A stretch of 56,886 bases of DNA from Chloroflexota bacterium (GTDB lineage Bacteria; Chloroflexota; Anaerolineae; 4572-78; J111). The notes under the pieces were generated by a model. The model was not told where the DNA came from. It saw only the letters and a list, made by a program, of their open reading frames with translations, and made no database searches. Within the stretch, counting starts at the first letter, position 1. Each line of letters starts with the position of its first letter. The translations under genes were made by a program, and so were the position numbers. Shown here one piece after another: positions 11,340 through 53,826 of the stretch. Location of the stretch: positions 1-56,886 of the forward strand of contig BOKF01000052.1 in the NCBI GenBank assembly GCA_016860845.1. The letters are read 5' to 3'.

Positions 11340-11415
11340 CGGGGAGTAGGGAGTAAGGAGTAGGAAGTAGGATCGCTAATACCCCTACTCCTTACTCCCT
11401 ACTTCTTACTCCCTA
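11340..11415. repeat. Heptamer-word palindrome (AGTAGGG type)
   Basis: The left half is about four 7-base words of the form AGTAGGG / AGTAAGG / AGTAGGA. After about 10 bases the right half is the reverse complement (CCTACTC, CTTACTC). It spans the gap between O-methyltransferase and phosphomutase and reaches into the O-methyltransferase stop codon. Confidence 0.85.
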
Positions 11416-11964
11416 TTCAGAAATCTTAACCGTAATCTCCAATCCCTGCCCCACCGGCACAGTGACACTCTCCAGGTTAGGGTGGTTTTGGACGTAGGTG
11501 GTGTAATCGGACAGGTCGTTTTCGTGCGCGACCACTTTATCGGCCACCACCATCGAGCCGATATTCATCCGCTTGTAAACGACATCAAAATAAGTTTCGT
11601 ACTGGCCGTAATCGCCGTCAATAAAGAGCAGGTCAACCGGCTCGCTGCGCTGGCGGAGCAGCTCGCGCGCATCGCCGACCAAAACCTCGACTGATTCGGC
11701 CAGGTTGGCTTTGGCCAGGTTGGCTCGGGTTTCCGCGGCTTTAGCGGGGTCAATTTCACAGGTAATCACCTGGCCGCCGGTCACTGAGGCGGCGTAGGCC
11801 AGCCAGAGGGTAGAGTAGCCAGGCCCGCTGCCAACTTCCACAATGGTTTTGGCTTTGTTGGAAATGGCTAAAATTGACAAAAACTTGGCCGAGTCAGGGT
11901 CCATGATCAATTTGGCGGCTCGCAGCTCCAGTTCGGCCAGCGTATCGAATAATTCTTGTTCCAT
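11413..11964 (-). CDS. O-methyltransferase, class I SAM-dependent
   Basis: Soluble 183-residue methyltransferase related to the catechol/caffeoyl-CoA O-methyltransferase family (methyltransf_3). SAM-binding motif I is IVEVGSGPGYSTLWLAYAA (around residues 40-58), the acidic residue of motif II is in VITCEIDPAKA, and FIDGDYGQYETYFDVV gives the Asp of the metal site. GAGGAG is present upstream of ATG 11964. It follows the nuo operon but is separated from nuoN by a terminator, so it is likely transcribed separately. The substrate is unknown; the short length fits small O-methyltransferases acting on hydroxylated aromatic or related compounds. Confidence 0.85.
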   Translation of the reverse strand: MEQELFDTLAELELRAAKLIMDPDSAKFLSILAISNKAKTIVEVGSGPGYSTLWLAYAASVTGGQVITCEIDPAKAAETRANLAKANLAESVEVLVGDARELLRQRSEPVDLLFIDGDYGQYETYFDVVYKRMNIGSMVVADKVVAHENDLSDYTTYVQNHPNLESVTVPVGQGLEITVKISE

Positions 11965-11980
11965 AGTAAACTCCTCGAAG

Positions 11981-12016
11981 ACAGTAGCCAGTAGTCAGTA
12001 GCCAGTAGTCAGATAG
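11981..12016. repeat. Heptamer-word repeat (CAGTAGC/CAGTAGT type)
   Basis: Five consecutive 7-base words alternating CAGTAGC and CAGTAGT. The complementary half is poor, making this one of the one-sided members. It sits between nuoN and the O-methyltransferase. Confidence 0.8.
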
Positions 12017-12060
12017 TTACTATGACCTTGCGGCTCTGCTACCCGGCTATCTTGTAATAG

Positions 12061-12087
12061 ATAAAAAAGGCCGGGAGTCCCGGCCTC
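12061..12087 (-). terminator. Intrinsic terminator of the nuo operon
   Basis: On the minus strand, the stem AGGCCGGG / CCCGGCCT (loop ACT) is followed by six T residues, 24 bases after the nuoN stop. Confidence 0.88.
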
Positions 12088-12110
12088 TGTCATAAAGACC
12101 ACCGCTAATT

Positions 12111-13604
12111 TTAGAAATTCGCGGCTAATATCTGGGCCGAGTTGTTGGCCAGGTCAATGAAGGGTTGGCCATATAGGGCGATCAACAGGGTCATTGCCAG
12201 CGTCAGCGCGACCAGGCCACCCATCACCAGGCCGGGACGAATGGGTGACTCGTCCGGCCCCTGGGCAAAAAAGACCAGCCGGGCTACCCCAAAGTAGTAG
12301 TAAACAGAGATGACGCTGTTGAGAATACCAATCCCTGCCAGCACGTAAAGTCCCTGGTTAATGGCCGCCCCAAAGACAAACAACTTGCCCATAAAGCCGC
12401 CCGTCGGGGGGATGCCGATGAGGGAGAGGAAGAAAATCAGCAGGGCAATGCTCAAAAAAGGCGAGCGGCGGATCAGGCCGGTGTAGTCGGAGATGTTGGC
12501 CGTCCCCATTTTATTTTCCAGGATAATGGCGACGGTAAAGACGCCCAGGTTGGTGAAGAGATAGGCAAAGAGATAGAGCAGAATGCCGTTGACCCCGTCA
12601 AAGCTGCCGCTGGATTGGCTATTCCATGCAGCCAGGCCAATCAGCATGTAGCCGGCCTGGGCAATACTGGAGTAAGCCAGCATCCGTTTCATATTGGTTT
12701 GCCACAGGGCTATCAGGTTGCCAACCGTCATCGTCAGGATGGCAATCAGGGAGAGGATTACGGTCCAATTGACACTGTAAGCCGGCAGGGCCACGGTGAA
12801 GACCCGGATGAGTACGGCAATCCCGGCGGCCTTCGGACCCACCGAGAGGAAGGCTGTGACCGGGGTCGGCGCGCCCTCATAGGCGTCGGGCGACCACTGG
12901 TGGAAGGGGACCAGGGCAATTTTGAAGCCAAAGCCGGTCAAAATCATCACGACCGTCCCGACCACCAGCAGCGGGCTGACCGGGGCGTCAGACAAGGTGC
13001 TGGCAATGGTGGCCAGGTCAACGCTGCCGGTGAGACCGTACAGCAGGGAAAAGCCGTACAACATCACCCCGGAAGCAACGGCCCCGTAGAGGAAATATTT
13101 AAGGGCGGCTTCGGTGGAGCGATTATCCTGGCGGAGGTAGCCGGTCAAGACATAGCTGGTGATGGAGAGAAATTCGAGGGCCAGGTAAATCATAATCAGG
13201 TTAGTGGCGGCCGAGAGCAGCATCAGGCTCAGACCGGCCAGCATGGTCAAGATGTAAAATTCACCTCGGAACGGGGTGCGGGCGTTGATGTACTCTACGG
13301 CGCTTAGACCGACCAGGGCAATGGTCAGCGTGGACAGCACTTTGAAGAACAGGGCCATTGTATCCACGGCCAGCATCGGCACAAAGTTCCCGGCGTCGGT
13401 GGCGATGCCGTAAGTATTGCTGGCGGCTCCGGCCCACCAGATATACATTGTCGCTGCCAGGGCGAGGATCGAGCCGGCAACCGCCAGCCAGGGCAAAATC
13501 ACGCCGCTTCTCTGGTCACCTTTCCAGAGAATATCCAGGGTGAGCAGGGCAAAAGCGACAAGGGTGATGATAATTTCCGGTAAAAGCAGCAGTACATCGT
13601 TCAA
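12111..13604 (-). CDS. nuoN: NADH-quinone oxidoreductase subunit N
   Basis: Antiporter-like proton-pumping subunit of complex I in the cytoplasmic membrane, about 497 residues with some 14 helices. Characteristic stretches are LEFLSITSYVLTGYLR (with the conserved Glu), FKIALVPFHQWSPDAYEGAP with its functional Lys, MKRMLAYSSIAQAGYML and FFLSLIGIPPTGGFMGKLFVF. The start is placed at TTG 13604 because AGGAGG lies six bases upstream; a longer frame from 13640 would include that ribosome-binding site in the protein. It is the last gene of nuoAHJKLMN. Confidence 0.95.
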   Translation of the reverse strand: MNDVLLLLPEIIITLVAFALLTLDILWKGDQRSGVILPWLAVAGSILALAATMYIWWAGAASNTYGIATDAGNFVPMLAVDTMALFFKVLSTLTIALVGLSAVEYINARTPFRGEFYILTMLAGLSLMLLSAATNLIMIYLALEFLSITSYVLTGYLRQDNRSTEAALKYFLYGAVASGVMLYGFSLLYGLTGSVDLATIASTLSDAPVSPLLVVGTVVMILTGFGFKIALVPFHQWSPDAYEGAPTPVTAFLSVGPKAAGIAVLIRVFTVALPAYSVNWTVILSLIAILTMTVGNLIALWQTNMKRMLAYSSIAQAGYMLIGLAAWNSQSSGSFDGVNGILLYLFAYLFTNLGVFTVAIILENKMGTANISDYTGLIRRSPFLSIALLIFFLSLIGIPPTGGFMGKLFVFGAAINQGLYVLAGIGILNSVISVYYYFGVARLVFFAQGPDESPIRPGLVMGGLVALTLAMTLLIALYGQPFIDLANNSAQILAANF

Positions 13605-13621
13605 GGTTAACCTCCTGCGGT

Positions 13622-13660
13622 TAACGTAGGTGTAGGTCAAGCTTAAGTTTGACCTACTTA
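13622..13660. repeat. Palindromic spacer between nuoM and nuoN
   Basis: GTAGGTGTAGGTCAAG faces TTTGACCTACTTA around the centre CTTAAG: a short member of the word-palindrome set, with repeated GTAGGT words. Confidence 0.65.
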
Positions 13661-13661
13661 A

Positions 13662-15227
<1,566 letters not shown>

Positions 15228-15250
15228 CAGGATTGCTTCTCCTTCAAAAA

Positions 15251-15284
15251 TAGTAGACAGTAGTCGGTAGACAGTAGACAGGGA
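15251..15284. repeat. Heptamer-word repeat (GTAGACA type)
   Basis: Four to five 7-base words (GTAGACA, GTAGTCG) in the nuoL-nuoM gap, without a clear complementary half. Confidence 0.75.
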
Positions 15285-15305
15285 TAGTACATTCCTTATC
15301 TTGTC

Positions 15306-17639: not shown

Positions 17640-17652
17640 GGTTAATTAACCT

Positions 17653-17709
17653 GTGATACGTGATCGTGATGCGTAATACGTAAAGAACCTCCTCACGTAT
17701 CACGCATTA
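17653..17709. repeat. Heptamer-word palindrome (GATGCGT type)
   Basis: Words GATACGT, GATGCGT and AATACGT on the left, with the complement CACGTATCACGCATTA on the right. It fills the nuoK-nuoL gap. The same words recur at 28484-28554. Confidence 0.82.
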
Positions 17710-17711
17710 GC

Positions 17712-18026
17712 TTAATTTTTAAGAATATCCAACTCTTCGACTACGACCGAGTAGCGGCGGCGGTAAACCGCAATCACAATCGCCAGGCCAACCGCGGCCT
17801 CAGCCGCAGCGACGGTGATGACGATGATTGCAAAAATCTGTCCGGCCACGTCGTTGGGGGCAATGTAGCGCCAGAAGGCAACCAGGTTGATATTGACGGC
17901 GTTCAGAATCAACTCCACGCCCATCAAAATAGCAATGGCGTTTTTGCGGGTGAGCGCCCCGTATACGCCGATGCTAAAGAGGGCCGCCGAAACGGTCAAC
18001 CACCACGATAGAGGAATAGCTGTCAT
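17712..18026 (-). CDS. nuoK: NADH-quinone oxidoreductase subunit K
   Basis: Small membrane subunit of complex I, 104 residues with three helices, homologous to MrpC. The two membrane glutamates of the family are seen in MGVELILNAVNINLVAFWR and in the AAEAAVGLAIVIAVYRRR segment. GGAGAG precedes ATG 18026. It is part of nuoAHJKLMN. Confidence 0.95.
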   Translation of the reverse strand: MTAIPLSWWLTVSAALFSIGVYGALTRKNAIAILMGVELILNAVNINLVAFWRYIAPNDVAGQIFAIIVITVAAAEAAVGLAIVIAVYRRRYSVVVEELDILKN

Positions 18027-18049
18027 ACTTTGCTCTCTCCAATTTTTAT

Positions 18050-18136
18050 GGAAGGCTGGAGGGTTGGAAGATTGGAAGACTAAACTTCGCCGGTCTTCGA
18101 GCCGAAGGCCCCCTATGGGCAGCCTTCCAATCGTCC
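18050..18136. repeat. Octamer-word palindrome (GGAAGGCT type)
   Basis: The left half is four 8-base words (GGAAGGCT, GGAGGGTT and variants); the right half is GCCTTCCAATCGTCC. It lies in the nuoJ-nuoK gap, with an inner 25-base segment that can itself pair (CGGTCTTCGAG/CCGAAGG area). Confidence 0.8.
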
Positions 18137-18143
18137 ATTATCT

Positions 18144-18683: not shown

Positions 18684-18695
18684 AAGCAAACCTCT

Positions 18696-18760
18696 CGGTA
18701 GGGAGTAGGTAGTAGGGAATAAGATTTTTTCCTTACTTCTTACTCCTTACTCCCTACTCC
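18696..18760. repeat. Heptamer-word palindrome (GTAGGGA type)
   Basis: Left words GTAGGGA, GTAGGTA and GTAGGGA; right half CTTACTCC, CTTACTCCC. It lies in the nuoH-nuoJ gap and shares words with 11340-11415. Confidence 0.85.
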
Positions 18761-18766
18761 ATTTTC

Positions 18767-20014: not shown

Positions 20015-20032
20015 TAATTCATCTCCCAAAGG

Positions 20033-20118
20033 GACAGAAGACAGTAGATAGAGGATAGAGGATAGAAGATAGAGTATTGTCTTCTATCTACCATCTTCAA
20101 TCCACTATCTTCTGTCTT
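20033..20118. repeat. Heptamer-word palindrome (GATAGAG type)
   Basis: Left half of GATAGAG, GATAGAA and GTAGATA words; right half CTTCTATC, CCACTATCTTCTG. It fills the nuoA-nuoH gap. Confidence 0.85.
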
Positions 20119-20119
20119 A

Positions 20120-20476: not shown

Positions 20477-20519
20477 AGCAGTCCTCCTCCTTGAAGCAAG
20501 CCGCCTTTTGAGCGGAACG

Positions 20520-20688: not shown

Positions 20689-20711
20689 CTCGCCACTATG
20701 GAGCAGAAAAA

Positions 20712-21779: not shown

Positions 21780-21787
21780 CTTGATTA

Positions 21788-21917: not shown

Positions 21918-21944
21918 TTAGCACTCGCAAGGGTAGAGTGCTAA
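21918..21944. promoter_or_regulatory. CIRCE operator
   Basis: TTAGCACTC, nine bases, GAGTGCTAA: an exact match to the CIRCE consensus bound by HrcA. It lies between the promoter and hrcA, so the cluster represses itself until heat stress titrates HrcA. Confidence 0.97.
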
Positions 21945-21960
21945 AGGGCGATTAACAACA

Positions 21961-23001
21961 ATGGCTGACAACCTTTTATCTGAGCGACAACAGATAGTTT
22001 TGCGCTTGGTGGTGCAGGAGTACATCAAATCCGCCGTACCGGTCAGCTCTAAAACAATAACGGAAGATTACCCGATTGGGGTCAGCTCGGCGACGATCCG
22101 CAACGAAATGGCGGTGTTGGAGGAAAAGGGCTTCCTGATGCAGCCCCATACCTCTGCCGGGCGCATCCCGACCGAAGTGGGCTACCGTTATTTTGTCGAA
22201 AAGTTGATGGAAAAGGCTGACTTGCCCCTTGAAGAGCAGCGCATGATCAGCCACCAATTCCATCAGTCTCGGCTGGAGCTAGACCAGTGGCTGCGCCTGA
22301 GCGCGGCGGTTTTGGCTCGCACCTCGCACAACGCCTCCCTGGTTACAGCGCCCAAAAGCGAGCGCTGTTATTTGAAGCATGTCGAACTGATCTCTCTACA
22401 CGAGAATTTGATGCTGCTCATTTTGGTCCTGCAAGGGGGGACGCTCAAACAGCAAATTCTGGAACTCGACTCACCGGCTGACCAGGATGAGCTGGGTCCC
22501 CTGGCGCGACAACTGAGCGATTTGTGGGCCGGGTTGGACACGCAAGAGGTGGCCGCCACAACCACTACCTTGACCGGGCTGGCTGCTACCGTGGGTGAAG
22601 TAGCCGTAGATACGATGCGGCGTATTGACGCCCGCCGCAGCAGCGACATTTATCACGATGGTCTGCTCAACTCACTCACCCAGCCGGAGTTTAGACATCG
22701 TGAGGGTGTCCAGCAGGTTATTCGTGCTCTGGAAGAGCGCCAGTTGGTCGAGCAATTGGTGGGCGAGGCGTTGCAGCGCGGCGGGGTTCAGATTATTATC
22801 GGCGGCGAGGGTAAATGGGAAGAACTGTCGGAAGTCGGTATTGTTCTGGCCCGTTATGGCATTGACGACACCGTCGCCGGGGCCATGGGGGTCTTGGGTC
22901 CGGTGCGCATGGCTTATGGGCGGGCCGTTTCCGTCGTGAAATATATGTCGTATTTGATGAGTGACTTGATAAGCGACCTGTACGGGTACAAGAATCAGTA
23001 G
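21961..23001 (+). CDS. hrcA: Heat-inducible transcription repressor HrcA
   Basis: Repressor of class I heat-shock genes, 346 residues. The N-terminal winged helix (LSERQQIVLRLVVQEYIKSA to SSATIRNEMAVLEEKGFL) binds CIRCE; HTSAGRIPTEVGYRYFV is a family signature. The C-terminal GAF-like domain ends with GVLGPVRMAYGRAVSVVKYM, also typical. ATG 21961 has little of a ribosome-binding site, because the leader is occupied by CIRCE. It is first in hrcA-grpE-dnaK-dnaJ. The last eight codons are copied again 92 bases downstream. Confidence 0.96.
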   Translation: MADNLLSERQQIVLRLVVQEYIKSAVPVSSKTITEDYPIGVSSATIRNEMAVLEEKGFLMQPHTSAGRIPTEVGYRYFVEKLMEKADLPLEEQRMISHQFHQSRLELDQWLRLSAAVLARTSHNASLVTAPKSERCYLKHVELISLHENLMLLILVLQGGTLKQQILELDSPADQDELGPLARQLSDLWAGLDTQEVAATTTTLTGLAATVGEVAVDTMRRIDARRSSDIYHDGLLNSLTQPEFRHREGVQQVIRALEERQLVEQLVGEALQRGGVQIIIGGEGKWEELSEVGIVLARYGIDDTVAGAMGVLGPVRMAYGRAVSVVKYMSYLMSDLISDLYGYKNQ

Positions 23002-23159
23002 CATAGTAACCAGTAATCAGTAGTCAGAAAAATATCTGGATGCTGCTTACTGACTACTTCTTTTAGGACCTGTACGGGTATAAGAATCAGTAGGGTAGTA
23101 GCCAGTGGTCAGAAAAAGAATATCTGACTACTGATTACTGACTACTGACTACTTTTTTT
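22975..23159. repeat. Tandem duplication of hrcA tail plus heptamer hairpin
   Basis: Unit 1 (22975-23066) holds the last codons of hrcA and a palindrome of CAGTAAC/CAGTAAT/CAGTAGT words. Unit 2 (23067-23159) repeats the hrcA tail (27 bases, one mismatch: GACCTGTACGGGTA..AGAATCAGTAG) and another CAGTAGC/GACTACT palindrome. The hairpin halves have diverged more than the coding tail. Confidence 0.88.
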
Positions 23160-23171
23160 AGGAGGTAGCTT

Positions 23172-23777: not shown

Positions 23778-23838
23778 AATGGAGAATTGGAAGGCTGGTA
23801 GATTGTAGGAAACCAGCCTTCCAGCCTTCCAACCTTCC
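23778..23838. repeat. Octamer-word palindrome (GGAAGGCT type)
   Basis: ATTGGAAGGCTGGTAG faces ACCAGCCTTCC, AGCCTTCC, AACCTTCC. It lies in the grpE-dnaK gap. Confidence 0.85.
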
Positions 23839-23893
23839 GACTTTTTAGTATTCTCTATCATCTTTTTAGCATCAATTACAGGAGTACCAGATT

Positions 23894-25798: not shown

Positions 25799-25858
25799 AG
25801 TAGCAGGGTAGCAGGTAGCAAGGTAGTACATTTTGTCTGCTACCTTGCTACTTTGTTA
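25799..25858. repeat. Heptamer-word palindrome (GTAGCAG type)
   Basis: Left words GTAGCAG, GTAGCAA and GGTAGTA; right half CTGCTACC, TTGCTAC. It lies in the dnaK-dnaJ gap. Confidence 0.85.
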
Positions 25859-25874
25859 CATGTGACAGGTTCCT

Positions 25875-28483: not shown

Positions 28484-28554
28484 TGATGCGTGATATGTGA
28501 TGCGTAAGAAATCTTGCCTGGAAACCATCACGCATCACGCATTACGTATCACGG
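28484..28554. repeat. Heptamer-word palindrome (GATGCGT type)
   Basis: Left words GATGCGT, GATATGT and GATGCGT; right half ATCACGC, ATCACGC, ATTACGT. It uses the same words as the nuoK-nuoL element 11 kb away, upstream of the cNMP-binding gene. Confidence 0.85.
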
Positions 28555-38335: not shown

Positions 38336-38434
38336 AAGACGGGAAGGCTGGAGGACTGGAAGGTTGGAAAGTTTCTGTGACCGATCCTCCAACCTTCCAA
38401 CCTTCCCCGCTTCCATTTCTTTCACCCTTCCAAT
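38336..38434. repeat. Octamer-word palindrome (GGAAGGCT type)
   Basis: Left words GGAAGGCT, GGAGGACT and GGAAGGTT; right half CCTCCAACC, TTCCAACC, TTCCCCGC. It lies upstream of the DUF58 promoter. Confidence 0.85.
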
Positions 38435-43144: not shown

Positions 43145-44890
43145 ATGCAATACCCTTTAGGCACCGCCGAGGCGCACCTGGGACCACCAGGCGACCTTTG
43201 GCTCCGGGGCAGGCTCACCTGCCCGGAGACCGCCGAAAGAAGTCAGAATCTTCCGAAGGTGAAAAGATTGATAGTAGCTGGCTGGCGTTCCCCTTTCTTT
43301 TATGTCATCTTGACGGTTTATTTGCTGGCTGGAGTCTTATTTGCCACCTTGACGCCCGACTGGCAGGCCCCCGACGAACCAGCCCACTTCAATTACGTGC
43401 ATTTTCTATCCATCCAGAGCGGCTTTCCGGAATTGGTGAGCCGCTGCTACAACCAGGCTTACTTGGAACGGCTGAAATCGCAACGCTTTCCGCCTGAACT
43501 CCCGCTGGACACTGTTTGCTATGAGTTCCACCAGCCACCGCTGTATTACCTGCTGGCGACCCCCATTTTTATCGTAAGCGGCGGCTCCCTGCTGGCTCTG
43601 CGCTTATTCTCGGTGATACTAGGGGCCGGGGTTGTCGGTCTGGCTTACTTTATTGCCCTAACGATTTTTCCCGGCCGGATGGCAATTGCCTATGGTACCA
43701 TGGCCTTTGTCGCCTTTGTGCCGATGCACGCGGCCATGCTCGCATCTGTCAACAACGATGCCCTGGCCGAACTGATTCTGGCCGGCCTGCTGCTGCTCTT
43801 AATTCGGCGCTTGGGGGTCGAGGACCGGGCTTCCACCCGCCGCGATGTTACGCTGGGAGTGCTTCTGGGGCTGGGTTTGATTACCAAAACGACCATCTAC
43901 ATTGCCGTCCCGCTGACGGCGGTGACGTTAGGGTTGGCCGCAGTTAAAGCGGCGAGGAGGCGGGGAGGTGGAGAAGTAGACGAAATGTCGCCATCCAGGG
44001 GCGTTGAGTTTCAGCAAACTCAAAGGTGTCCGAACCGGGTAAACGGGTCGCTTCTGATTAAACAAACAGGGCTTATCTTTGGCTTGGCGTTGGTTATCGC
44101 GCTGCCGTGGTACATCCGTAACGCCGTACTCTATGGTAATTTTGACCTGCTGGGGTTGGGCCGGCACAATGCTGTGGTGGTCGGCCAACTGCGGACGGCT
44201 GATTATGTGGCCGAGGCCGGCTGGCCCACTTACCTCTATAACTTTGTGACGGTCACCTTTCAGAGCTTTTGGGGCCAGTTCGGCTGGATGGCCGTTCCTA
44301 TGAGCCAGCGAGTCTACCTGGCCTTGACTTTGCTCACCCTGGCAGCGCTGGGGGGACTGGTCGGATTTTGGACTGCCCATCTGATGGGCGTGGATTTGAG
44401 CTTTGGGAAAGACGTATCCTCATCCAGCGCACTACGCACTACGCACTACGCACCAAGCACCAAGCAGTTCCAGGCTTTGCTCTTAATGGCCCTGACCATC
44501 GGCTTGATGCTCCTTGGCTATGTCTGGTACAACCTGGAATTCGTGCAGTTTCAGGGGCGTTATCTCTTTCCGGCGCTGATACCGCTCGGTATTTTTTTCT
44601 CGATGGGGCTATCTGTTGCCTTCTCGCCGCGCTGGGCCTGGCTGCTGGCCGGGAGCCTGGCGCTGCTGGCCATGGGGTGGTTGGCGGTCACCCCGCTCCG
44701 GCAAGGGGAGATAGATAAATGGGCGCTGCTGTTAGTTGGGCTGGCCGTGGTGTTCGCGGTGGGACGAGCCTGGCTGGCGTCTCGCTGGCCGGTTCCGGCC
44801 TCCTGGCTGCTGACGGCAGTCTACGCTGGTCTGGCCGGGCTGACGCTGCTCAGCCCTTTCTGGTATATCATCCCTTATCTCTCCCCCTGA
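43145..44890 (+). CDS. Membrane glycosyltransferase, GT-C / PMT-like
   Basis: Integral membrane protein of up to 581 residues with about 11 helices. The first outer loop has the acidic motif of GT-C enzymes in DWQAPDEPAHFNYVHFL, placed just after the first helix, and WYIRNAVLYGNFDLLG later. Substrates are probably polyprenyl-phosphate sugars. Start choice is uncertain: ATG 43145 opens 38 residues unlike the family, over a strong hairpin (43202-43228); GTG 43259 (VKRLIVAGW) may be the true start. Two cytoplasmic loops (about residues 275-305 and 425-442) are encoded by palindromic or heptamer repeat DNA, an unusual feature. Confidence 0.82.
   Translation: MQYPLGTAEAHLGPPGDLWLRGRLTCPETAERSQNLPKVKRLIVAGWRSPFFYVILTVYLLAGVLFATLTPDWQAPDEPAHFNYVHFLSIQSGFPELVSRCYNQAYLERLKSQRFPPELPLDTVCYEFHQPPLYYLLATPIFIVSGGSLLALRLFSVILGAGVVGLAYFIALTIFPGRMAIAYGTMAFVAFVPMHAAMLASVNNDALAELILAGLLLLLIRRLGVEDRASTRRDVTLGVLLGLGLITKTTIYIAVPLTAVTLGLAAVKAARRRGGGEVDEMSPSRGVEFQQTQRCPNRVNGSLLIKQTGLIFGLALVIALPWYIRNAVLYGNFDLLGLGRHNAVVVGQLRTADYVAEAGWPTYLYNFVTVTFQSFWGQFGWMAVPMSQRVYLALTLLTLAALGGLVGFWTAHLMGVDLSFGKDVSSSSALRTTHYAPSTKQFQALLLMALTIGLMLLGYVWYNLEFVQFQGRYLFPALIPLGIFFSMGLSVAFSPRWAWLLAGSLALLAMGWLAVTPLRQGEIDKWALLLVGLAVVFAVGRAWLASRWPVPASWLLTAVYAGLAGLTLLSPFWYIIPYLSP
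43202..43228. repeat. GC-rich hairpin at the start of the glycosyltransferase gene
   Basis: CTCCGGGGCAGG faces CCTGCCCGGAG, loop CTCA. Located between two possible start codons; favours the later start (GTG 43259). Confidence 0.6.
44004..44023. repeat. Palindrome inside glycosyltransferase gene
   Basis: TTGAGTTT, CAGC, AAACTCAA: perfect eight-base stem translated as part of a polar loop insertion. Confidence 0.65.
44428..44467. repeat. Heptamer-word repeat inside glycosyltransferase gene
   Basis: GCACTAC three times, then AAGCACC words, in frame; encodes SALRTTHYAPSTKQ in a loop between helices. One-sided, without the complementary half. Confidence 0.8.
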
Positions 44891-44913
44891 ATGGGGGGTG
44901 GACGAGATTGAAA

Positions 44914-45525: not shown

Positions 45526-45531
45526 GCTGTA

Positions 45532-45565
45532 AAAACCGCAGAGGTTTCAAAAACCTGTGCGGTTT
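45532..45565. terminator. Hairpin between converging genes
   Basis: AAACCGCAGAGGTTT / AAACCTGTGCGGTTT with one mismatch, just after the RNase H stop; likely stops transcription from both sides, though the T tail is short. Confidence 0.6.
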
Positions 45566-45635
45566 CATGCCCAAAAATTGGGACGCACTCGCTGAGTAAC
45601 TTGTCTCGGCGGTCGGTCGGAGGCTGGTCAAATTG

Positions 45636-47972: not shown

Positions 47973-48088
47973 ACCGTTTGTTTTCCTATTCCAATTTGAT
48001 CAGTCCGTAACTATTTATTCTTAACCTAAAAGACTAAAGGAACATTAAAAATTGAGCGTGCTTTTGGGGCTAGTTGGCCTCTTTAGAG

Positions 48089-51000
48089 TTAGTTGACCGT
48101 AGGCGTCATTGTCTCCTGCACCGCCGGTCCGAGGGTGGTTGTGGGCGTCTCGGTAGGCACCTCGGGTGTAGGGGTCTCGGTGGGCAGTTCAGGAGTCGGA
48201 GTCTCAGTCGGAGTGGCGCTGGGCGGGATGGGCGTGTCGGTAGGCACTTCGGGGACAGGCGTATTGGTCGGCGGCTGGACAGTCGGCGTCTCGGTAGGGG
48301 GGACAATCGTCGGCATGACGGTCGGGGTGTCGGCCACGGGGAGCGGTGTGTCGGTGGGGGCGGGCGTCGAAGTGGCGGCGTTGTCCACCAGCACCCGGAC
48401 TTTGGCGTCAAAAGCGCCGCCGCTTTGATCGAACACGACCAGGCGCAGGGTGTAAGGTCCATTTTCTACCTGGGTCGTATCCAGCGTACCCAAAACGCCC
48501 TGCTCCACAATCTGGCTGACCGGCCCCACGGCCAAGGCAAACTCCGCCGGGTTGGTGCCTTTCCCTACCTCGATTTGATAGTGGGAAAAATTGGCCGCCG
48601 TAGCCGAGCCTTCCAGGGTAATCACGCCGCGTACTGACGCCCCATCCAGCGGGCTGGTAATCCCGGCGAAAATATTGGTCGAGGGACAGTACTGCTCCGG
48701 CGGCTGCTCAATGCCCTGGCTCATGGCCCAGGCTCGCCCATCCTCGCCTGGGTAAACCCGGAAATATTTCTCCTCGACATTGGCCCGGCAAAATTCGTTG
48801 GCCCGCAGGCCGGTGTTGCGGTCAATGGCAATCAATTGGTGAATATCATGTTCTGGACCCAATGGCGGCTGGTCCTTGAAGAAAATTTCCTTCTTGCGCT
48901 GGGGGCAGACCGGGCTGGGAATCGTGCCGGAGTCGGCGCAGATTTCCAGCTCGACGATGGTTGGCGGGCGGGTAAAGTCGCGCACCGGCAGCCCTTCGTG
49001 GGCGCGTTCCATAAAGTTATGCCAGATTGGCCCCGCCCCAGCCAGGCCGCTGACGTTAATCATCGGCGTATTATCGGCATTGCCAACCCAGACCCCGGTG
49101 ACAATATCGGGGGTAAAGCCCATGGTCCAATTATCTTTATAGTCATTGGTAGTGCCAGTTTTGGCTGCCGCGGGCCGGGAAAGGTGGAGGGCGCTGTTAG
49201 GGCCAAACGTCAGGGAGCGAGCTTCGTTGTCGGCCAGGATGTTGGTGATGAGATACGCGTGTTCCGGGCGCAGCACCTGGCGCGGCTGGGGACGGGCCGG
49301 CTCGATAACCCGGCCAAAGCTGTCGGTGATACTCAGGATAGCCGTCGGCGGAACCTGTACCCCGCCGTTAGCTATGGCCTGGTATGCGCCAGTCAGTTCC
49401 ACCAGCGGGACTTCCCCCGCGCCCAGGGTCAAAGCCAGGCCGTAATCATTGCGGGTCAGGGTCGTGATCCCCAGGCGAGCGATCATCTCCTTGAGGGTGT
49501 CCACGCCGATCACTTGCAGCGTTTTCACCGGGGGGATATTAAAAGAATTGGCCAGGGCATAGCGCAGCAGCACCGGCCCGTGAAATTTGTCGTCATAATT
49601 TTTGGGCTTGTAAACGCCGCCCGCGCCGTCGGGATACTCCACCGGCGTGTCCATGAGCAGGCTGCTGGGCGTCCAGTTCAGCCGTTCAAAAGCGGCCAGG
49701 TAGGTCAACGGCTTGATGGCTGAGCCGGGCTGGCGCGGGCTGGTGGCCAGGTTGACCTGTCCATCAATAGCCTCATCCCGGAAATCTTTGCTGCCGACCA
49801 TAGCCAGGATCTGACCGGTGCTGGTATCCATCGCCACCAATGCGCCGCTGCTTACATTGCGCCCGGCCAGGGCATCTACCTGGTTGCGCACCTCCTCTTC
49901 GGCAATGGCTTGCAGGCGGGGGTTGAGGGTGGTCTGGACACGCAGGCCGGCCTGGTAGATGTAGTCCGGCGGGACAATCTTCTCCAACTCCTGGCGCACA
50001 TAGGTGACAAAGTGCGGGGCTTGCATGGAGAAGCCAACCGGCTGGAATTGGAGTTCGGTTCGGGCGGCTTCATCAGCCTGAGCCTGGCTGATGGCCTGAG
50101 CTTCGACCATGAGCCGCAGCACGTCCGCCTGGCGGGCCTTGGCCCCTTCCGGGTTGGTGTAGGGGTCGTGGAGAGCCGGGGATTGGGGCAGGCCGGCCAG
50201 CATGCTCGCCTCGGCCAGGGTTAGGTCTTTGGCTTTTTTGCCGAAATACGTTTCTGAAGCAGCCTCGATGCCGTAGGCCAGGTTGCCGTAATAAATCTGG
50301 TTGAGGTAAATTTCCAGGATTTGCTGTTTGCTGTACTGCCGGTTAATTTCGACGGCCAGGACCGCCTCTTTGATTTTGCGGGAGAAGGACTGCTCGGTGC
50401 GCTCCTCGGGGGTCAGCAGCACGTTGCGGGCCAACTGCTGGGTAATGGTGCTGCCGCCGGAAACAATTTCGCCCTCGGTCAGGTTGTAGTAGACAGCCCG
50501 CACCACCGCAATCGGATCAACCCCCACATTGGAAAAAAAGAAACGATCTTCGGTGGCGACGGTGGCATTGATCAGGTCAGGCGAAATCTGGTCAAGCGTG
50601 ACAATCGTGCGCCGCCCGCCGCTGGGGTCAATGATTTCCCAGAGCAGGTTGCCGTCCCGGTCAAGAATTTGGGTGGTGGCAAATTGGATCCGTCGCGCCA
50701 GCAGTTCCTCGGCAGAGGGTAACTGCGAGGCAATCCAAACATAACCGACCATGCCCACGGCCAGGAGCAGCATGCCTCCGACGAGGCCCAAAATCAAGAC
50801 CGCCGCCAATAAGCGGCCGATTCCCACCCGCTTCCGTGGCGGAGGCGGCGGAGGTGCCTGAAACACGGTTGGGGCAGGGGCGTGGTAGGTAGGTTGAGCC
50901 AGTCGCGGTTGAACAGGCGGGGGGTCCCAGGCCGAGCGCCGCCGGGCAGCCGGAGCTGGTGGCTGGGGGCGGTTCGGCCTGGTATCGTGGCCAGGTTGAG

Positions 51001-51136
51001 CCGGTTTCTGCGACGAGAGCCAGGTGCGATCCGGGTCGTCAGGCCGGCGGATGGGCCGGGTCTGCTCATTATCACGATTATTGGGCGGGGTGGATCTCCC
51101 AGAGCGGTCTGTATTTGGGTCGTTAATTTCTGTCAT
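48089..51136 (-). CDS. Class A penicillin-binding protein (PBP1A family)
   Basis: Bifunctional peptidoglycan synthase, 1015 residues. A Pro/Arg-rich cytoplasmic N-terminus (1 to about 110) is followed by one transmembrane helix (about 110-137). The GT51 domain has the catalytic Glu in VATEDRFFFSNVGVDP and GGSTITQQLARN. The transpeptidase has the nucleophile motif PGSAIKPLTYL, SFN in YALANSFN and AAKTGTTNDYKDNW. The C-terminus has a beta domain and an about 90-residue Thr/Pro repeat tail (TPTPE-like units, encoded by 48100-48360). Its own promoter lies upstream with a long inverted repeat in the leader. Confidence 0.95.
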   Translation of the reverse strand: MTEINDPNTDRSGRSTPPNNRDNEQTRPIRRPDDPDRTWLSSQKPAQPGHDTRPNRPQPPAPAARRRSAWDPPPVQPRLAQPTYHAPAPTVFQAPPPPPPRKRVGIGRLLAAVLILGLVGGMLLLAVGMVGYVWIASQLPSAEELLARRIQFATTQILDRDGNLLWEIIDPSGGRRTIVTLDQISPDLINATVATEDRFFFSNVGVDPIAVVRAVYYNLTEGEIVSGGSTITQQLARNVLLTPEERTEQSFSRKIKEAVLAVEINRQYSKQQILEIYLNQIYYGNLAYGIEAASETYFGKKAKDLTLAEASMLAGLPQSPALHDPYTNPEGAKARQADVLRLMVEAQAISQAQADEAARTELQFQPVGFSMQAPHFVTYVRQELEKIVPPDYIYQAGLRVQTTLNPRLQAIAEEEVRNQVDALAGRNVSSGALVAMDTSTGQILAMVGSKDFRDEAIDGQVNLATSPRQPGSAIKPLTYLAAFERLNWTPSSLLMDTPVEYPDGAGGVYKPKNYDDKFHGPVLLRYALANSFNIPPVKTLQVIGVDTLKEMIARLGITTLTRNDYGLALTLGAGEVPLVELTGAYQAIANGGVQVPPTAILSITDSFGRVIEPARPQPRQVLRPEHAYLITNILADNEARSLTFGPNSALHLSRPAAAKTGTTNDYKDNWTMGFTPDIVTGVWVGNADNTPMINVSGLAGAGPIWHNFMERAHEGLPVRDFTRPPTIVELEICADSGTIPSPVCPQRKKEIFFKDQPPLGPEHDIHQLIAIDRNTGLRANEFCRANVEEKYFRVYPGEDGRAWAMSQGIEQPPEQYCPSTNIFAGITSPLDGASVRGVITLEGSATAANFSHYQIEVGKGTNPAEFALAVGPVSQIVEQGVLGTLDTTQVENGPYTLRLVVFDQSGGAFDAKVRVLVDNAATSTPAPTDTPLPVADTPTVMPTIVPPTETPTVQPPTNTPVPEVPTDTPIPPSATPTETPTPELPTETPTPEVPTETPTTTLGPAVQETMTPTVN

Positions 51137-51154
51137 GCCGTAACTACTGGCTAA

Positions 51155-51231
51155 AGGTGACTGGCACTTGGTTAGCCCTAAACTTTGCTGTTCTCAATGG
51201 TCTTGCCAAAGGAGAAAAGTGCCAGTCACCT
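51155..51231. repeat. 15-base inverted repeat in the PBP leader
   Basis: AGGTGACTGGCACTT (51155-51169) and its exact reverse complement (51217-51231), 47 bases apart. Both lie in the predicted 125-base mRNA leader. Confidence 0.85.
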
Positions 51232-51268
51232 GAATAGTATGTCATGCTGACTATAACACCTGCGAGGG

Positions 51269-51296
51269 ATTATAGCTTCGGGGGGCAGGGTGTCAA
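51269..51296 (-). promoter_or_regulatory. Promoter of the penicillin-binding protein gene
   Basis: Minus-strand TTGACA (51291-51296), 16 bases, TATAAT (51269-51274). Confidence 0.85.
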
Positions 51297-51301
51297 TAAA
51301 T

Positions 51302-51331
51302 AAAAAAAGGGTACAGTTTTTGACCATACCC
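51302..51331 (-). terminator. Terminator after infA
   Basis: GGGTA...TACCC stem with an inner GGT/AC pairing, then seven T residues on the minus strand, directly before the PBP promoter. Confidence 0.7.
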
Positions 51332-51377
51332 AGGATGATATGCAAGATAGAGCAGTAGAGGCTATTGTTGGGAGGAG

Positions 51378-51650
51378 TTATTCTTCTGCCATTTCATCTT
51401 CCATCGCCCGGCCGGCAGCCGTGTTGCTCTTATAGCGATAGATGATGCGCCCTCGATCCAGATCATAAAGGGACAGTTCCACCCGCACTTTGTCGCCCAA
51501 CAAAACGCGGATGTAAAATCTTCTCATTTTGCCGGACAAATAGGCCAAAACGGTGTGGCCATTTTCTAACTTAACTTTGAAGCTCGTGTTGGGCAGGGCC
51601 TCGACGATCGTCCCCTCCAACACCAGTTTCTCTTTAGTAACATCAGCCAT
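51378..51650 (-). CDS. infA: Translation initiation factor IF-1 with C-terminal extension
   Basis: OB-fold protein that binds the 30S A site, 90 residues. The core follows IF-1 closely: [20 protein letters not shown], then [18 protein letters not shown] and [14 protein letters not shown]. It has about 18 additional residues at the C-terminus ending EDEMAEE, acidic, beyond the usual 72. GGGAG precedes ATG 51650; an upstream frame is ignored. It is a single-gene unit with its own promoter and terminator, away from ribosomal protein genes, so it may be a second copy; this cannot be checked in the window. Confidence 0.93.
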
Positions 51651-51765
51651 ACAAGCTCCCTTCTCCAATTGGACTTCTATCAATAACCGAGGCGCTGACA
51701 GCCCTCGGAGTCGGTAAAAATTTAACAACCAAATGAATTTTTGGTATTTTTTGATTGACCTCCCT

Positions 51766-51794
51766 ATTTTAGCAGACAGGTATACCCTTGTCAA
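51766..51794 (-). promoter_or_regulatory. Promoter of infA
   Basis: Minus-strand TTGACA (51789-51794), 17 bases, TAAAAT (51766-51771); leader of about 110 bases. Confidence 0.8.
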
Positions 51795-51800
51795 TTAATA

Positions 51801-51863
51801 GAAGAGGGGAGAAAATGGAAAGTTGGAGGAGTGGGCGATCCACCAGCCTTCCAACCTCTCCTT
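51801..51863. repeat. Octamer-word palindrome (GGAAGGTT type)
   Basis: GGAAAGTTGGAGGAGTGG faces CCAGCCTTCCAACC; it lies between the divergent infA and surface-protein promoters. Confidence 0.75.
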
Positions 51864-51890
51864 TGAAATCCACTGAAGCAGGCCTATAAT
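51863..51890 (+). promoter_or_regulatory. Promoter of the Thr/Pro-rich protein gene
   Basis: TTGAAA (51863-51868), 16 bases, TATAAT (51885-51890); 35 bases to the start codon. Confidence 0.75.
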
Positions 51891-51931
51891 TGGCATCCCT
51901 TATCCATTACTCTGGAGCAGAAAGCGTAAAA

Positions 51932-52747
51932 ATGTCTTTACGTCTGGTACAATTCTTGATTCTGGGCGGTCTGATCGTCGTGGTGCTGGCAGTGATTGCT
52001 CTGGCTGTCTGGAGCCTCGAACCGGCCTGGCTGCCCCTCCCGCAGTTCACTGCTCAAGAAGAGGCAAGCATTACGCTGGCCCAGCCAACTCCCGTGCCGA
52101 CTTTCACCCTCACCCCCAGTCCGGTCCCGCCAACATTTACGCCCACTTCGACCTCGACGGCGACACCAACATTCACTCCCACTCAGCCCCCTACCCCAAC
52201 AAATACCGCTGAACCACTTATTGAACCTACAGTCACACCTCCTCCCCCACCACCACCGACCGGCCCACCCACACCCATAGAACTGCCAACCCCTGCTCCA
52301 TCCGCAGTGGATTTCGTCGTTGTGCAGCAGCGCATGCGCACCAACGAAGAGAACAGTGTGCTGGGCAAAGTCGCCAATAACTGTGGGGGAGATCACTCGA
52401 TTTATGTGCTGGTGGTGGATGCGGCCGGCAAGCCTCTGACCGGGGTGATTGTGGGTGACACCTACAAAAATGTGCGGGAGGCTTCGGGCAGTGCGGGGCT
52501 GGGTAAGTTAAGGATAGATTTGTGGAGCAACACCATGGCGCTGGAAGTGCAGGGAAATATTGATGGTACCCCCTACACCAGTGAGCAAACCCTGCCTCTC
52601 TCCACCCGCGACGAAGACATCCCGGCCGAATGGCTCTTTGCCGGCGGCTACTGCGGCTCCATCGCCGATTGCCAACTGCGCCAAAAAACCAACGGCCTCT
52701 GCCGGGGACATTACTCTTATGATGTCACTTTTCAGAGGGCGTGGTGA
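51932..52747 (+). CDS. Secreted or surface protein with Thr/Pro linker, unknown function
   Basis: 271 residues. One N-terminal transmembrane helix (residues about 8-28; ILGGLIVVVLAVIALAVW) anchors the protein. A linker of about 80 residues made of Thr, Pro and Ser, ending in PPPPPPP, extends outward to a C-terminal domain of about 130 residues that resembles a beta-sandwich (YVLVVDAAGKPLTGVIVGD). It has cysteines in NCGGD, GGYCGSIADCQLRQ and GLCRGHY that could form disulphides. No family assigned. ATG 51932 is supported by the promoter, which excludes the upstream frame. Confidence 0.8.
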   Translation: MSLRLVQFLILGGLIVVVLAVIALAVWSLEPAWLPLPQFTAQEEASITLAQPTPVPTFTLTPSPVPPTFTPTSTSTATPTFTPTQPPTPTNTAEPLIEPTVTPPPPPPPTGPPTPIELPTPAPSAVDFVVVQQRMRTNEENSVLGKVANNCGGDHSIYVLVVDAAGKPLTGVIVGDTYKNVREASGSAGLGKLRIDLWSNTMALEVQGNIDGTPYTSEQTLPLSTRDEDIPAEWLFAGGYCGSIADCQLRQKTNGLCRGHYSYDVTFQRAW

Positions 52748-52832
52748 GGCGAAGAGCATAGGAGCGAGGACGGGTGAGGCGAAGTGGCGAAGTGGTTCTA
52801 CGCCTCCTCGCTTCCTCGCGCCTTCGTTTCAT
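52745..52832. repeat. Octamer-word palindrome (GGCGAAGT type)
   Basis: Words GGCGAAGT and GAGCGAGG on the left; GCCTCCTC, GCTTCCTC and GCGCCTTC on the right. It fills the gap between two converging genes. Confidence 0.82.
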
Positions 52833-52833
52833 T

Positions 52834-53646
52834 TCAACCCGTTCCGTTGAAAAATTGGGCTAACTCCTCCAGAGGAATGGGCGCAGTCAAATCAATGGTC
52901 ATCGGCACGACCGAGACCATGCGGTCAACGGTCAGAATATGAATATCAGAGTCCGGCTCAAGACCGTTGTGGTTTATGTGAACCCGGTAACTAATTGCTT
53001 TTTGTTCATCCAGGCGGGTGCGTCCACTAGGGAGAGCCTGGTAGTAGCGCTGCCGGGAAACCCGGCCAACGCGCCAGGGGGTTTGGGGAGTGGCGCCAGC
53101 CGGGATGTCTATTTTGAGGAAGTCAACGCCAGGTGGGAGACCCTCGTTTAGAACTTGCCGGGCAAAATGCTGGGTGAAATAAGCGGCAACATAGAAATCA
53201 ATGTCGGTGCTGTGGCTATAATGGTATTCCTGCGGTGTCTCAAGACTTACAGCCAGGGCCGGGATGCCGGAGCAGGCCGCTTCAAGGGCAGCCCCTACAG
53301 TGCCGGAAATTGTCACCCCACTGCCCATATTTTCGCCGTAGTTGATCCCGCTGATGCACAGATCAATGGGGCGCTCGGCCAGCTCTAGTAGAGCTAATTG
53401 GACAGCCTGAGCCGGGGAAACGTCGGCCGTGTAAGCCGGGTGCGGTCCCGAATTTAATGGAATCTCGGCGGAGTAAATCGCCTTGTCCTGGGCCGGTAGA
53501 AAACTCCGCCCGGCGCTGGTGCGCTGTGTTTTGGGGGCGACAATCAGTAAATCGCTCAGATCAACCAGGGCAGTGGCCGCCGCATGCAGGCCCGGCGAGT
53601 CAATGCCGTCGTCGTTGGTTACAAGAATGAGAGGACGTTTCGTCAT
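52834..53646 (-). CDS. surE: 5'/3'-nucleotidase SurE
   Basis: Metal-dependent nucleotidase of stationary-phase survival, about 270 residues. The metal-binding N-terminus is LILVTNDDGIDSPGLHAAA; further conserved parts are AGRSFLPAQDKAIY (near SG), ISGINYGENMGSGVTISGTV and GAALEAACSGIPALAVS. AGGAG precedes ATG 53646. It stands alone, with a TATAAT box at 53679-53684 overlapping the palindrome ATCAACAGTTGAT (53668-53680), which may be an operator. Confidence 0.94.
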   Translation of the reverse strand: MTKRPLILVTNDDGIDSPGLHAAATALVDLSDLLIVAPKTQRTSAGRSFLPAQDKAIYSAEIPLNSGPHPAYTADVSPAQAVQLALLELAERPIDLCISGINYGENMGSGVTISGTVGAALEAACSGIPALAVSLETPQEYHYSHSTDIDFYVAAYFTQHFARQVLNEGLPPGVDFLKIDIPAGATPQTPWRVGRVSRQRYYQALPSGRTRLDEQKAISYRVHINHNGLEPDSDIHILTVDRMVSVVPMTIDLTAPIPLEELAQFFNGTG

Positions 53647-53667
53647 AAAGAACTCCTGATAGAAATG

Positions 53668-53684
53668 ATCAACAGTTGATTATA
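53668..53684 (-). promoter_or_regulatory. surE -10 box overlapping a palindrome
   Basis: TATAAT on the minus strand (53679-53684) abuts the 13-base palindrome ATCAACAGTTGAT. The -35 region is poor (TTCCAT, 16 bases away). Confidence 0.5.
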
Positions 53685-53754
53685 AACGGGGTTGGAAAGA
53701 ATGGAAATTCCTTGCAGAAATGACTCTTGAATGGTAAACTACCCACCCAAAGCA

Positions 53755-53826
53755 TTTACGATTTTAGATTTTGGATTTACGATTGAGTTTATTAATTCGT
53801 AAATCGTAAATAGTAAATCGTAAAGC
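53755..53826. repeat. Heptamer-word palindrome (TTTACGA type)
   Basis: TTTACGA, TTTTAGA, TTTTGGA and TTTACGA on the left; TAAATCG, TAAATAG and TAAATCG on the right. AT-rich member, between surE and dnaX. Confidence 0.88.

Follow-up and report, generated by a model that had tools for sequence, protein, structure and literature searches.

Intergenic heptad and octad hairpins of a Chloroflexota contig and their probable kinship with small elements carrying an IVP gene

Intervening sequences (IVS) exist also without a gene, and the gene-less palindromes termed REP/REPIN are thought to be mobilised in trans by a gene with similar flanks. The IVS of 23S rRNA was termed selfish and horizontally acquired, and its IVP/S23 protein is said to lack a known function (PMC4990558). 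In the P6b stem-loop of the Nostoc trnL group I intron two classes of motifs are distinguished, Class I (TDNGATT) and Class II (NNTGAGT), one of which replaces the other throughout the region (PMC4476775, excerpt). Other heptamers are found outside the intron: two Xanthomonas genomes contain 70 and 75 convergent inverted pairs of GGGAATC (PMC4692102, excerpt), and TAACTGA is present in Beggiatoaceae, Cyanobacteria and Bacteroidetes, its spread across phyla being ascribed to no evident mechanism in the excerpted account (PMC4679880). Here, the intergenic hairpins of a stretch of 56,886 nucleotides (the window) from one contig of a Chloroflexota bacterium are compared with these systems and with two relatives, G001 and G002.

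Arrays and hairpins between protein genes

Intergenic tandem arrays with a score of at least 13 were counted for each period. The window holds eight arrays of period 7, two of period 8, one each of periods 12 and 13 and five of period 14, G001 (800 kb) holds 29 of period 7, one of 8, three of 9, one of 11, ten of 14 and three each of 15 and 21, and G002 (400 kb) holds 25 of period 7, six each of 8 and 9, 13 of 14 and four of 21, together with four single counts. In all three the intergenic tandem repeats are dominated by period 7 (and 8), and the periodicity is stronger than in shuffled sequence, since one dinucleotide shuffle of each gave no array at any period. The repeats are thus tandem 7-mers of intergenic DNA, as heptameric STRRs are, with a period-7 excess over the zero of that one shuffle. 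Better gene calls combined with a looser threshold gave for G001 59 period-7 arrays in 109 kb of intergenic DNA as against 29 in the roughly 691 kb that were called coding, so that the placement is strongly, not exclusively, intergenic; in the window, the array at 44428-44466 sits within open reading frame 43268-44890.

The original prediction spoke of about 18 loci of one plan; 17 intergenic loci were counted, all placed between called protein genes and none in a 23S rRNA gene, and a scan of the window against Rfam at gathering thresholds gave no match. Two of the 17 lack a good second arm, i.e., the CAGTAGY array 3′ of a nuoN-type gene (11979..12054; second arm weak, fold z -2.4, IVP-arm match L102) and the GTAGACA array in the nuoM/nuoL-type gap (15248..15281; no clear second arm, z -1.35, match L108). 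The words and positions named earlier hold. GTAGGGA hairpins lie between two minus-strand genes (11342..11418; z -6.3, best IVP-arm match L113) and in the nuoJ/nuoH gap (18698..18760; z -5.5), where G001 and G002 have the same word, and GATGCGT hairpins lie in the nuoL/nuoK gap (17653..17709, with GATACGT; an ATTGACA hairpin in the G001 slot) and at 28485..28553 (z -4.6; no close IVP-arm match in the sample, 11.4). The octamer GGAAGGCT or near variants of it occur at five places: 18049..18136 in the nuoK/nuoJ gap (z -3.0), 23786..23844 in the grpE/dnaK gap (z -4.0) and, with GGAAGGTT, 38341..38414 in a divergent gap (z -3.5), these three matching the IVP arm L117; 21788..21851 5′ of hrcA, as GGAAGGCTGG (z -2.3; GATAGAR-type repeats in the G001 slot); and 51817..51858, a short, degenerate GGAAGGTT-type hairpin outside the 16 elements that were folded. 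The hrcA/grpE gap contains two copies, CAGTAATC at 22996..23058 (z -2.8) and CAGTAGTC at 23088..23153 (z -5.8), and the G001 gap one. The remaining hairpins are those of GATAGAG in the nuoH/nuoA gap (20033..20118; z -7.0, a GAGGCGAA-type hairpin in the G002 slot), GTAGCAG(G) in the dnaK/dnaJ gap (25800..25859; z -6.4, a nested GTAGGGA/GATAGAG hairpin in G002), the octamer GGCGAAGT in a convergent gap (52746..52826; z -4.1, GATAGAG in G001) and TTTACGA in a divergent gap (53754..53824; z -6.7, IVP-arm match L123, with a TGACCGC hairpin elsewhere in the G001 gap).

When the RNA folds of 16 window elements were compared with 200 shuffles each, 13 were unmatched by any shuffle (z from -2.8 to -7.0), the exceptions being 11979, 15248 and 21788, so that complementary ends forming a stem, as in the IVS type, are present. 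A complementary partner above the 99% level of the null was found for 36/72 arrays of G001, 25/65 of G002 and 2/12 of the window, the last figure being low partly because some hairpins were entered as a single array, both arms together.

Hairpins were also found in the syntenic gaps of the close relatives, where slots are kept and the word is often exchanged. At 17653 and 52746 the entire word differs between relatives while the flanks are about 90% identical; the slot-mates of 11342, 18698 and 20033 retain the word with few substitutions. The hairpin is present in one genome only in 36/119 gaps of sister genomes, and one clean insertion is flanked on both sides by AATG, the sole clear target-site-like repeat in the 17 printed gap alignments. 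Beyond the relatives, a search of plasmids by blastn (E up to 10) gave for the 11342 hairpin 11 records, nine of them cyanobacterial, which bears out the likeness to cyanobacterial heptameric repeats proposed before. The records for TTTACGA were partly cyanobacterial, with Borrelia as the largest genus, those for GATAGAG and CAGTAGT came from Providencia, Pantoea and others, and GATGCGT (8 records) and GGAAGGCT (3) stayed near the control (7). GATAGAR is patchy, occurring in 2/61 genomes of the phylum, G001 included.

IVP genes, their arms and the word

Complementary heptad arms also flank genes of PF05635 ("23S rRNA intervening sequence protein", IVP), a four-helix bundle, in Chloroflexota and on plasmids; the best PDB match of a Nostoc IVP is 2gsc, the Xanthomonas campestris homologue XCC0516 (E 1e-23). 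Arms were scored against 225 other small genes, whose 99th percentile is 13.8. This value was exceeded at 98/131 IVP loci of several phyla (39/46 in the first set, 44/69 in further Chloroflexota, 15/16 on plasmids), and the other 33/131 did not pass it. The arms have an autocorrelation of 0.64 at lag 7 and 0.60 at lag 14, compared with 0.24-0.35 at the other lags tested, and at the 98 armed loci the upstream arm has more G than C in 88 and less in 8. In codirectional gaps the IVP gene has the strand of both neighbours in 27 cases and the opposite one in 2, and none of the IVP genes lies in a divergent gap. Only this 27 to 2 is informative, since the overall agreement with the strand of the upstream gene (71/73) has no evidential value, convergent gaps giving it by construction. 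Convergent gaps hold 27/56 IVP loci with both neighbours called, which is above expectation and indicates that gene calls on short flanks may err. TAACTGA occurs at least three times in the flanks of three IVP genes (L151, L152, L177), and GGGAATC does so at none of the 131 loci. Four IVP genes (L102, L112, L122, L129) are flanked by two seemingly complete hairpins.

The window itself holds no IVP gene, and because of this the tie to IVP was invisible to the original prediction. A tblastn search of the window gave no hit, no hairpin in it has an IVP gene in its loop as the long form of IVS does (related elements have one, at the 98/131 armed IVP loci), and in the window and 1.2 Mb of the two relatives no intact IVP gene was found, with one weak match (E 5e-4); remnants within hairpins number none in the window, none in G001 and one, weak, in G002. 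The 1.2 Mb of G001 and G002 contain 137 strict arrays vs. no intact IVP gene, and ORF-less forms thus far outnumber full ones. Any array of period 7 or 8 was present in 7/20 genomes with IVP and 3/20 without, where a single genome supplied 14/22 arrays of the IVP side; the greater density of arrays in genomes with IVP is no more than suggestive.

The ORF-less hairpins share words with IVP arms, 71/136 loci having a word match of at least 18 as against 15% of word-permuted controls; at the low threshold of at least 12 the permuted null is high (79%). For two window words, GATGCGT and GATAGAG, the sample contains no IVP arm that comes close. The handedness of the ORF-less hairpins is that of the IVP arms in 30/33 loci that have a second arm and match clearly, three being discordant; this is the merged test, as the first one, which had no mixed word cluster, may count two arms per hairpin. 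Gene-less copies therefore share ends with a gene-bearing element, as MITEs do, the comparison covering words and handedness. The similarity of IVP proteins correlates with that of their words (rho 0.20, n=98; rho 0.18 in an independent set, n=59), each value exceeding all 1000 permutations, and arms are shared by 3-8% of pairs below a protein similarity of 0.6, 46% at 0.6-0.7 and 67% above. Identity at fourfold sites is 352/1340 (0.26) in 52 word-sharing pairs below 75% amino-acid identity and 0.23 in 97 unrelated pairs; the word is retained within IVP subfamilies although synonymous sites are almost saturated. As a nearest-neighbour rule the link is weak, the nearest protein having the best-matching arm in only 9/41 cases (median rank 7). 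Some words recur across phyla and the vocabulary is limited; among cross-phylum pairs with a protein similarity of at least 0.5, only 13% share the word. The earlier idea that architecture spreads rather than sequence stands in so far as the architecture of a slot persists through frequent changes of word between relatives, but sequence spreads too, as seen in the limited vocabulary, the fixed handedness, the cross-phylum words and the tie to IVP subfamilies.

Proposed explanation and its rivals

The window hairpins are probably ORF-less, MITE-like members of a group of small mobile elements that resemble IVS and lie outside rRNA. The full element would consist of a heptad or octad array, an IVP gene and the complementary array. 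IVP may be expressed from the transcript of the host operon, and each subfamily would recognise its word as a structured hairpin, in RNA or in single-stranded or cruciform DNA. No catalytic domain of IVP is known to us; it would insert, expand or replace hairpins at operon junctions with the help of an enzyme of the cell. The ORF-less hairpins would stay as spacers, which RNase III may excise from mRNA as it does the 23S rRNA IVS. IVP-bearing and ORF-less elements occupy identical intercistronic slots in the three cases traced: three IVP slots of G002 were followed into G001, and all three are without IVP there, two holding a hairpin of another word and one a lone array of the same word.

More tentatively, a code of protein and word may be considered, in which each IVP subfamily would have a single heptad or octad word to recognise and, acting in trans, would plant, extend or overwrite such hairpins at operon junctions without bringing a transposase or reverse transcriptase itself. 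Sister systems would pair small nucleases (PDDEXK_3, GIY-YIG) with other hairpin vocabularies. If true, the heptamer repeats of phyla such as Chloroflexota and Cyanobacteria would go back to one system, and the element would be a very small mobile one, living at operon junctions and rewriting intergenic hairpins. Heptamer repeats were so far described by themselves; joining them to the IVP/S23 protein offers a candidate role for each and a directly testable code of protein subfamily and DNA word.

The link of arm and gene can also be turned round, as IVP genes could enter hairpins already present. That IVP genes are passengers, inserted into loops whose word they recognise while another process makes the hairpins, is somewhat unlikely, yet it would account for the 137 arrays beside no intact gene, for the four IVP genes between complete-looking hairpins and for the nested hairpin of two words in G002. 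It still requires recognition of the word by IVP, however, and leaves the origin of new hairpins unexplained.

Selection might keep the hairpins between cistrons as terminators, as stabilisers of RNA or as sites for RNase III, with the word nearly irrelevant; this would agree with the strong folds and with the orientation of the gaps, since those carrying arrays are densest per kb when codirectional (0.73 in G001, 1.38 in G002), compared with convergent (0.35, 0.82) and divergent ones (0.29, 0.34). Yet only 47/311 codirectional gaps of at least 50 bases in G001 carry an array, presence differs between sister genomes in the 36/119 gaps, and neither the cross-phylum vocabulary nor the fixed handedness is predicted by structure alone, which makes this explanation improbable.

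We consider it still more doubtful that the arrays are neutral microsatellites, built by polymerase slippage at hairpins from chance seeds and diversified by point mutation with no mobile element involved. Array units do differ by point changes, arrays are present in called coding DNA too, three slot-mates retain their word, and over-representation of heptamers in bacteria was reported with slippage proposed as its source (PMC4692102, excerpt). Slippage does not predict, however, the fixed handedness, like arms at IVP genes of other phyla, the exchange of entire words at 17653 and 52746 or a link of protein and word that holds with synonymous sites nearly saturated. Mobilisation of REP/REPIN palindromes by a RAYT (Y1) transposase is hardly credible and this mover was rejected, because, although Y1_Tnp matches are present (three each in G001 and G002), inspection by eye of the best complementary flanks at eight loci, out of 11 matches, showed no heptad array, and the five of the eight above 13.8 carry other palindromes.

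The elements among known systems

REP/REPIN with RAYT differs from the present elements in its protein and in the lack of heptad arrays at the eight Y1_Tnp loci. The accessory protein Avd of diversity-generating retroelements (bAvd, PF22296) shares profile kinship with IVP: the bAvd profile gives a Nostoc IVP 35.5 bits (cut-off 40), and for the protein of locus L130 the scores are 60.1 with bAvd and 22.3 with PF05635 (cut-off 33.8). A DGR-like repeat, seen by eye, adjoins L130 only. Reverse transcriptase matches are present in 30/48 IVP genomes and 27/103 others, counted by hand and unadjusted for genome size. As a necessary partner the enzyme was rejected: G034, in spite of its 22 IVP matches, gave none, nor did the IVP-rich G024, G126, G052 and G019, and it is therefore not required, as far as these assemblies show.

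Cyanobacterial STRRs and other heptamers (TAACTGA; GGGAATC / GGGGAYT) are likewise tandem and intergenic, but the excerpted literature deals with single words separately and brings in no IVP gene (PMC4692102; PMC4679880). The P6b stem-loop of Nostoc resembles the hairpins in its stem of 7-nt motifs and in motif replacement over the whole region, and differs in being a single locus within an intron, with no IVP link reported in the excerpt (PMC4476775). The 23S rRNA IVS has small size, complementary ends that form a stem and an IVP gene in the loop (PMC4990558), whereas the present elements lie between protein genes, have heptad or octad arms of many words and are in most copies gene-less.

Heptad hairpins and their intergenic slots

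The window's hairpins of degenerate 7- or 8-base words, described in the original prediction, were borne out by Tandem Repeats Finder and by direct reading. They number 17 loci between genes, leaving aside an array at 44428 that is within a gene. Period 7 and its multiples, then 8 and 9, are prominent in intergenic DNA and absent from one shuffle per sequence. In an RNA-fold test, 13 of the 16 window elements folded better than all 200 shuffles.

The window encodes NADH dehydrogenase genes, of nuoN, M, L, K, J, H and A types as judged by Pfam and gene order, and also hrcA, grpE, dnaK, dnaJ, surE and dnaX-like genes. One genome scan gave Anaerolineales bacterium H5_CFX7 (G001, locus L001) as its closest match, H5_CFX5 (G002, locus L002) as the second and, among nine loci, four further, more distant Chloroflexota. 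G001 aligns with most of the window in two blocks of 87-93% DNA identity, and for the cluster that it has in common with G002 the identity is 74-86%. Period-7 arrays in G001 number 59 in 109 kb of intergenic DNA vs. 29 in ~691 kb of coding DNA; called coding DNA thus also contains arrays, at far lower density. Upstream of hrcA (window ~21926-21952) lies TTAGCACTC-N9-GAGTGCTAA, a match to the CIRCE heat-shock operator; G001 conserves it, and L002 and L006 do so almost fully. The tandem palindromes CGGAAACGTTTCC and ACTAACACGTGTT (2894-2919 and 4075-4101) lie 5′ of genes and differ little from their G001 counterparts; they resemble repressor operators. A CAGTAGTC hairpin is present in tandem duplicate in the hrcA/grpE gap (23002-23171) and in single copy in G001.

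Many gaps common to orthologs of the nuo and hrcA-dnaJ clusters carry hairpins, of the same or a different word; the nuoL/nuoK gap holds GATGCGT in the window and G002, ATTGACA in G001 and further words in the relatives' loci L003, L005, and L006. A strict scan, which overlooks weak arrays (e.g., the window's own 17653) and in which a pair scored as "different" (23771) may in fact share a word in degenerate form, counted same word, different words, array in one genome only and none as 4, 4, 7, and 16 for window-G001 (31 gaps), 1, 1, 8, and 2 for window-G002 (12 gaps) and 8, 8, 36, and 67 for G001-G002 (119 gaps). Arrays were present in both genomes in 8, 2, and 16 gaps, respectively, vs. 4.3, 2.7, and 8.7 expected under independence. 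At two loci, 17653 and 52746, hand reading showed that the word has clearly been exchanged between flanks ~90% identical. Codirectional gaps bear arrays at 2.5 to 4 times the density per kb of divergent ones, with convergent gaps between. In the G001 stretch 524612 a GAGATTG-type hairpin, with AATG on each side, is cleanly inserted between overlapping stop and start codons.

IVP genes bracketed by complementary arms

Window hairpins matched plasmid records, those of cyanobacteria for GTAGGGA and partly for TTTACGA. At two of four opened places the arms lie beside or around a gene annotated as "four helix bundle protein", the region being without annotation in the remaining two. This family (PF05635, "23S rRNA intervening sequence protein"; IVP) is present in 6/6 Chloroflexota relatives, 3/5 cyanobacterial plasmid records and 48 of 151 sampled Chloroflexota genomes, and in 0/14 control genomes. 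Flanks were read for 46 of the 49 loci behind 52 matches, all but L107 and two fragmentary loci on a single Nostoc plasmid. In a first test, flank complementarity at 34 of the 46 exceeded the 99th percentile for 174 other genes. Under uniform settings, against 225 other small genes, 39/46 of this first set passed, as did 44/69 further Chloroflexota loci (29 returned by the search, the other 40 taken from its longer list) and 15/16 loci on plasmids, opened from 28 tblastn records (14 cyanobacterial, one of Gemmatimonadota, one of Alphaproteobacteria). Among the 225 controls, three genes passed as well: one of PDDEXK_3, one of GIY-YIG and nuoJ, the last probably through a chance stretch. Autocorrelation of the arms is 0.64 at lag 7 and 0.60 at lag 14.

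The arrays without an IVP gene, merged to 136 loci, share words with these arms: 71 match at a score of at least 18, vs. 15% of word-permuted controls; with looser cut-offs this null is high (79% at scores of 12 or more). Of the 33 loci that have a second arm and match clearly, 30 show the handedness of the IVP-upstream arm. Three of 23 G002 IVP matches, picked as types unseen in G001, were traced there, and each slot lacked IVP, holding a CGTGTTG hairpin (L128), an ATTGACA hairpin (L123) or a lone GGAAGGTT array (L117). Among 79 arm-bearing IVP loci from Chloroflexota, 56 had both neighbors called; these neighbors were codirectional with the IVP gene in 27, codirectional against it in 2, convergent in 27 (a share that may be inflated, since genes were called on short flanks) and divergent in none. 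Several plasmid IVP genes lie inside operons, e.g., cas6-IVP-cas4 and cas10-IVP-cmr3, which, together with the orientation, fits a gene read from the host's transcript.

Relation between word and protein

Arm similarity tracks IVP protein similarity in 41 loci (rho 0.32, exceeding all 2000 permutations), in 98 loci (rho 0.20, 28 orthologous-site pairs removed) and in the 59 new loci taken by themselves (rho 0.18, 21 such pairs removed), the latter two exceeding all 1000 permutations; 33 of 131 loci were dropped for want of arms. The relation is step-like: a word is common to 3-8% of pairs below protein similarity 0.6, 46% at 0.6-0.7 and 67% above 0.7 (in the new set, 58 and 76% for the upper two classes). 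When Cyanobacteria are compared with Chloroflexota, rho is 0.13 (p ≤ 0.009), and a word is common to 13% of those pairs whose similarity is at least 0.5. Examples are TTTACGA (L084 with L123 and L100) in the 41-locus test, GAGCAGGG (L088 and L161) and TTAGC words (L205 and L202 with L135); the L084 pair scores low in the 98-locus test because another array was chosen by the arm picker. Other pairs, such as L088 with L114 and L213 with L108, run counter to the relation.

Fourfold-site identity in word-sharing pairs below 75% amino-acid identity (52 of 69) is 0.26, vs. 0.23 in unrelated pairs (0.30 for all 69 pooled); neutral DNA is thus nearly randomized, and constraint is a likelier reason for the common word than recent copying. 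We regard this as the strongest evidence for a functional tie between word and protein.

Proposed mechanism and comparison with known elements

The analysis showed bracketing of the gene by arms, words and handedness in common, constancy of the word, a preferred orientation and, in three cases, a shared slot. In the likely mechanism, the IVP protein, expressed from the mRNA of the host operon, would bind hairpins of its own word, and cellular enzymes would insert or rewrite them. By analogy with the IVS, as treated in PMC4990558, RNase III may cut the hairpins out of mRNA. Causation may run either way, from the full element to gene-less hairpins or by entry of IVP genes into hairpins. Reverse transcriptase, as far as the examined assemblies show, is not needed within the genome. 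Profile comparison relates IVP distantly to Avd, a DGR protein; L130 (G002:C5:632896-633198) gives a weak PF05635 match and encodes a bAvd-like protein, and an adjoining A-rich stretch looks, by eye, like a DGR template repeat. RAYT showed no association as a partner at the Y1_Tnp loci examined; RAYT-like genes (L011, L012, L016, L017) have their own palindromes, such as GAGTCGAGGCTTTAGCCGAG, hence REP-like elements coexist with heptad hairpins.

The IVP elements may form part of a broader class. In eight Chloroflexota genomes, PDDEXK_3 (GxxExxY-like) genes lay between complementary hairpin arms at 16 of the 19 loci tested (30 matches less fusions and fragments), with weak 9-base periodicity (0.41). 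Small GIY-YIG genes had complementary flanks in 6 of 13 scored loci (23 matches less long genes, fragments and one short-flank gene). PDDEXK_3 loci, among them G001:C1:1824751-1825086 (L284), L271, L272, and L279, have their own repeat vocabulary (CACAGATTA, ACGCGGATAA). Several GIY-YIG flanks, at loci such as G002:C1:1025040-1025261 (L313), L307, and L317, are of AGATTTCTC...GAAATGACA type, and gene-less stretches resembling it occur in the L002 counterparts of the gaps at window 18010 and 21775.

There is prior work on the small dispersed repeats of cyanobacteria. No link between heptamer repeats and IVP genes was found in searches confined to open-licence papers. Related work includes PMC4476775, PMC4990558, PMC4692102, PMC4679880, PMC8700078, and PMC10910872. 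The heptamer TAACTGA, which Beggiatoaceae and Cyanobacteria carry as an unexplained repeat (PMC4679880), is present at least three times in the regions flanking L151, L152, and L177 among the 131 IVP genes.
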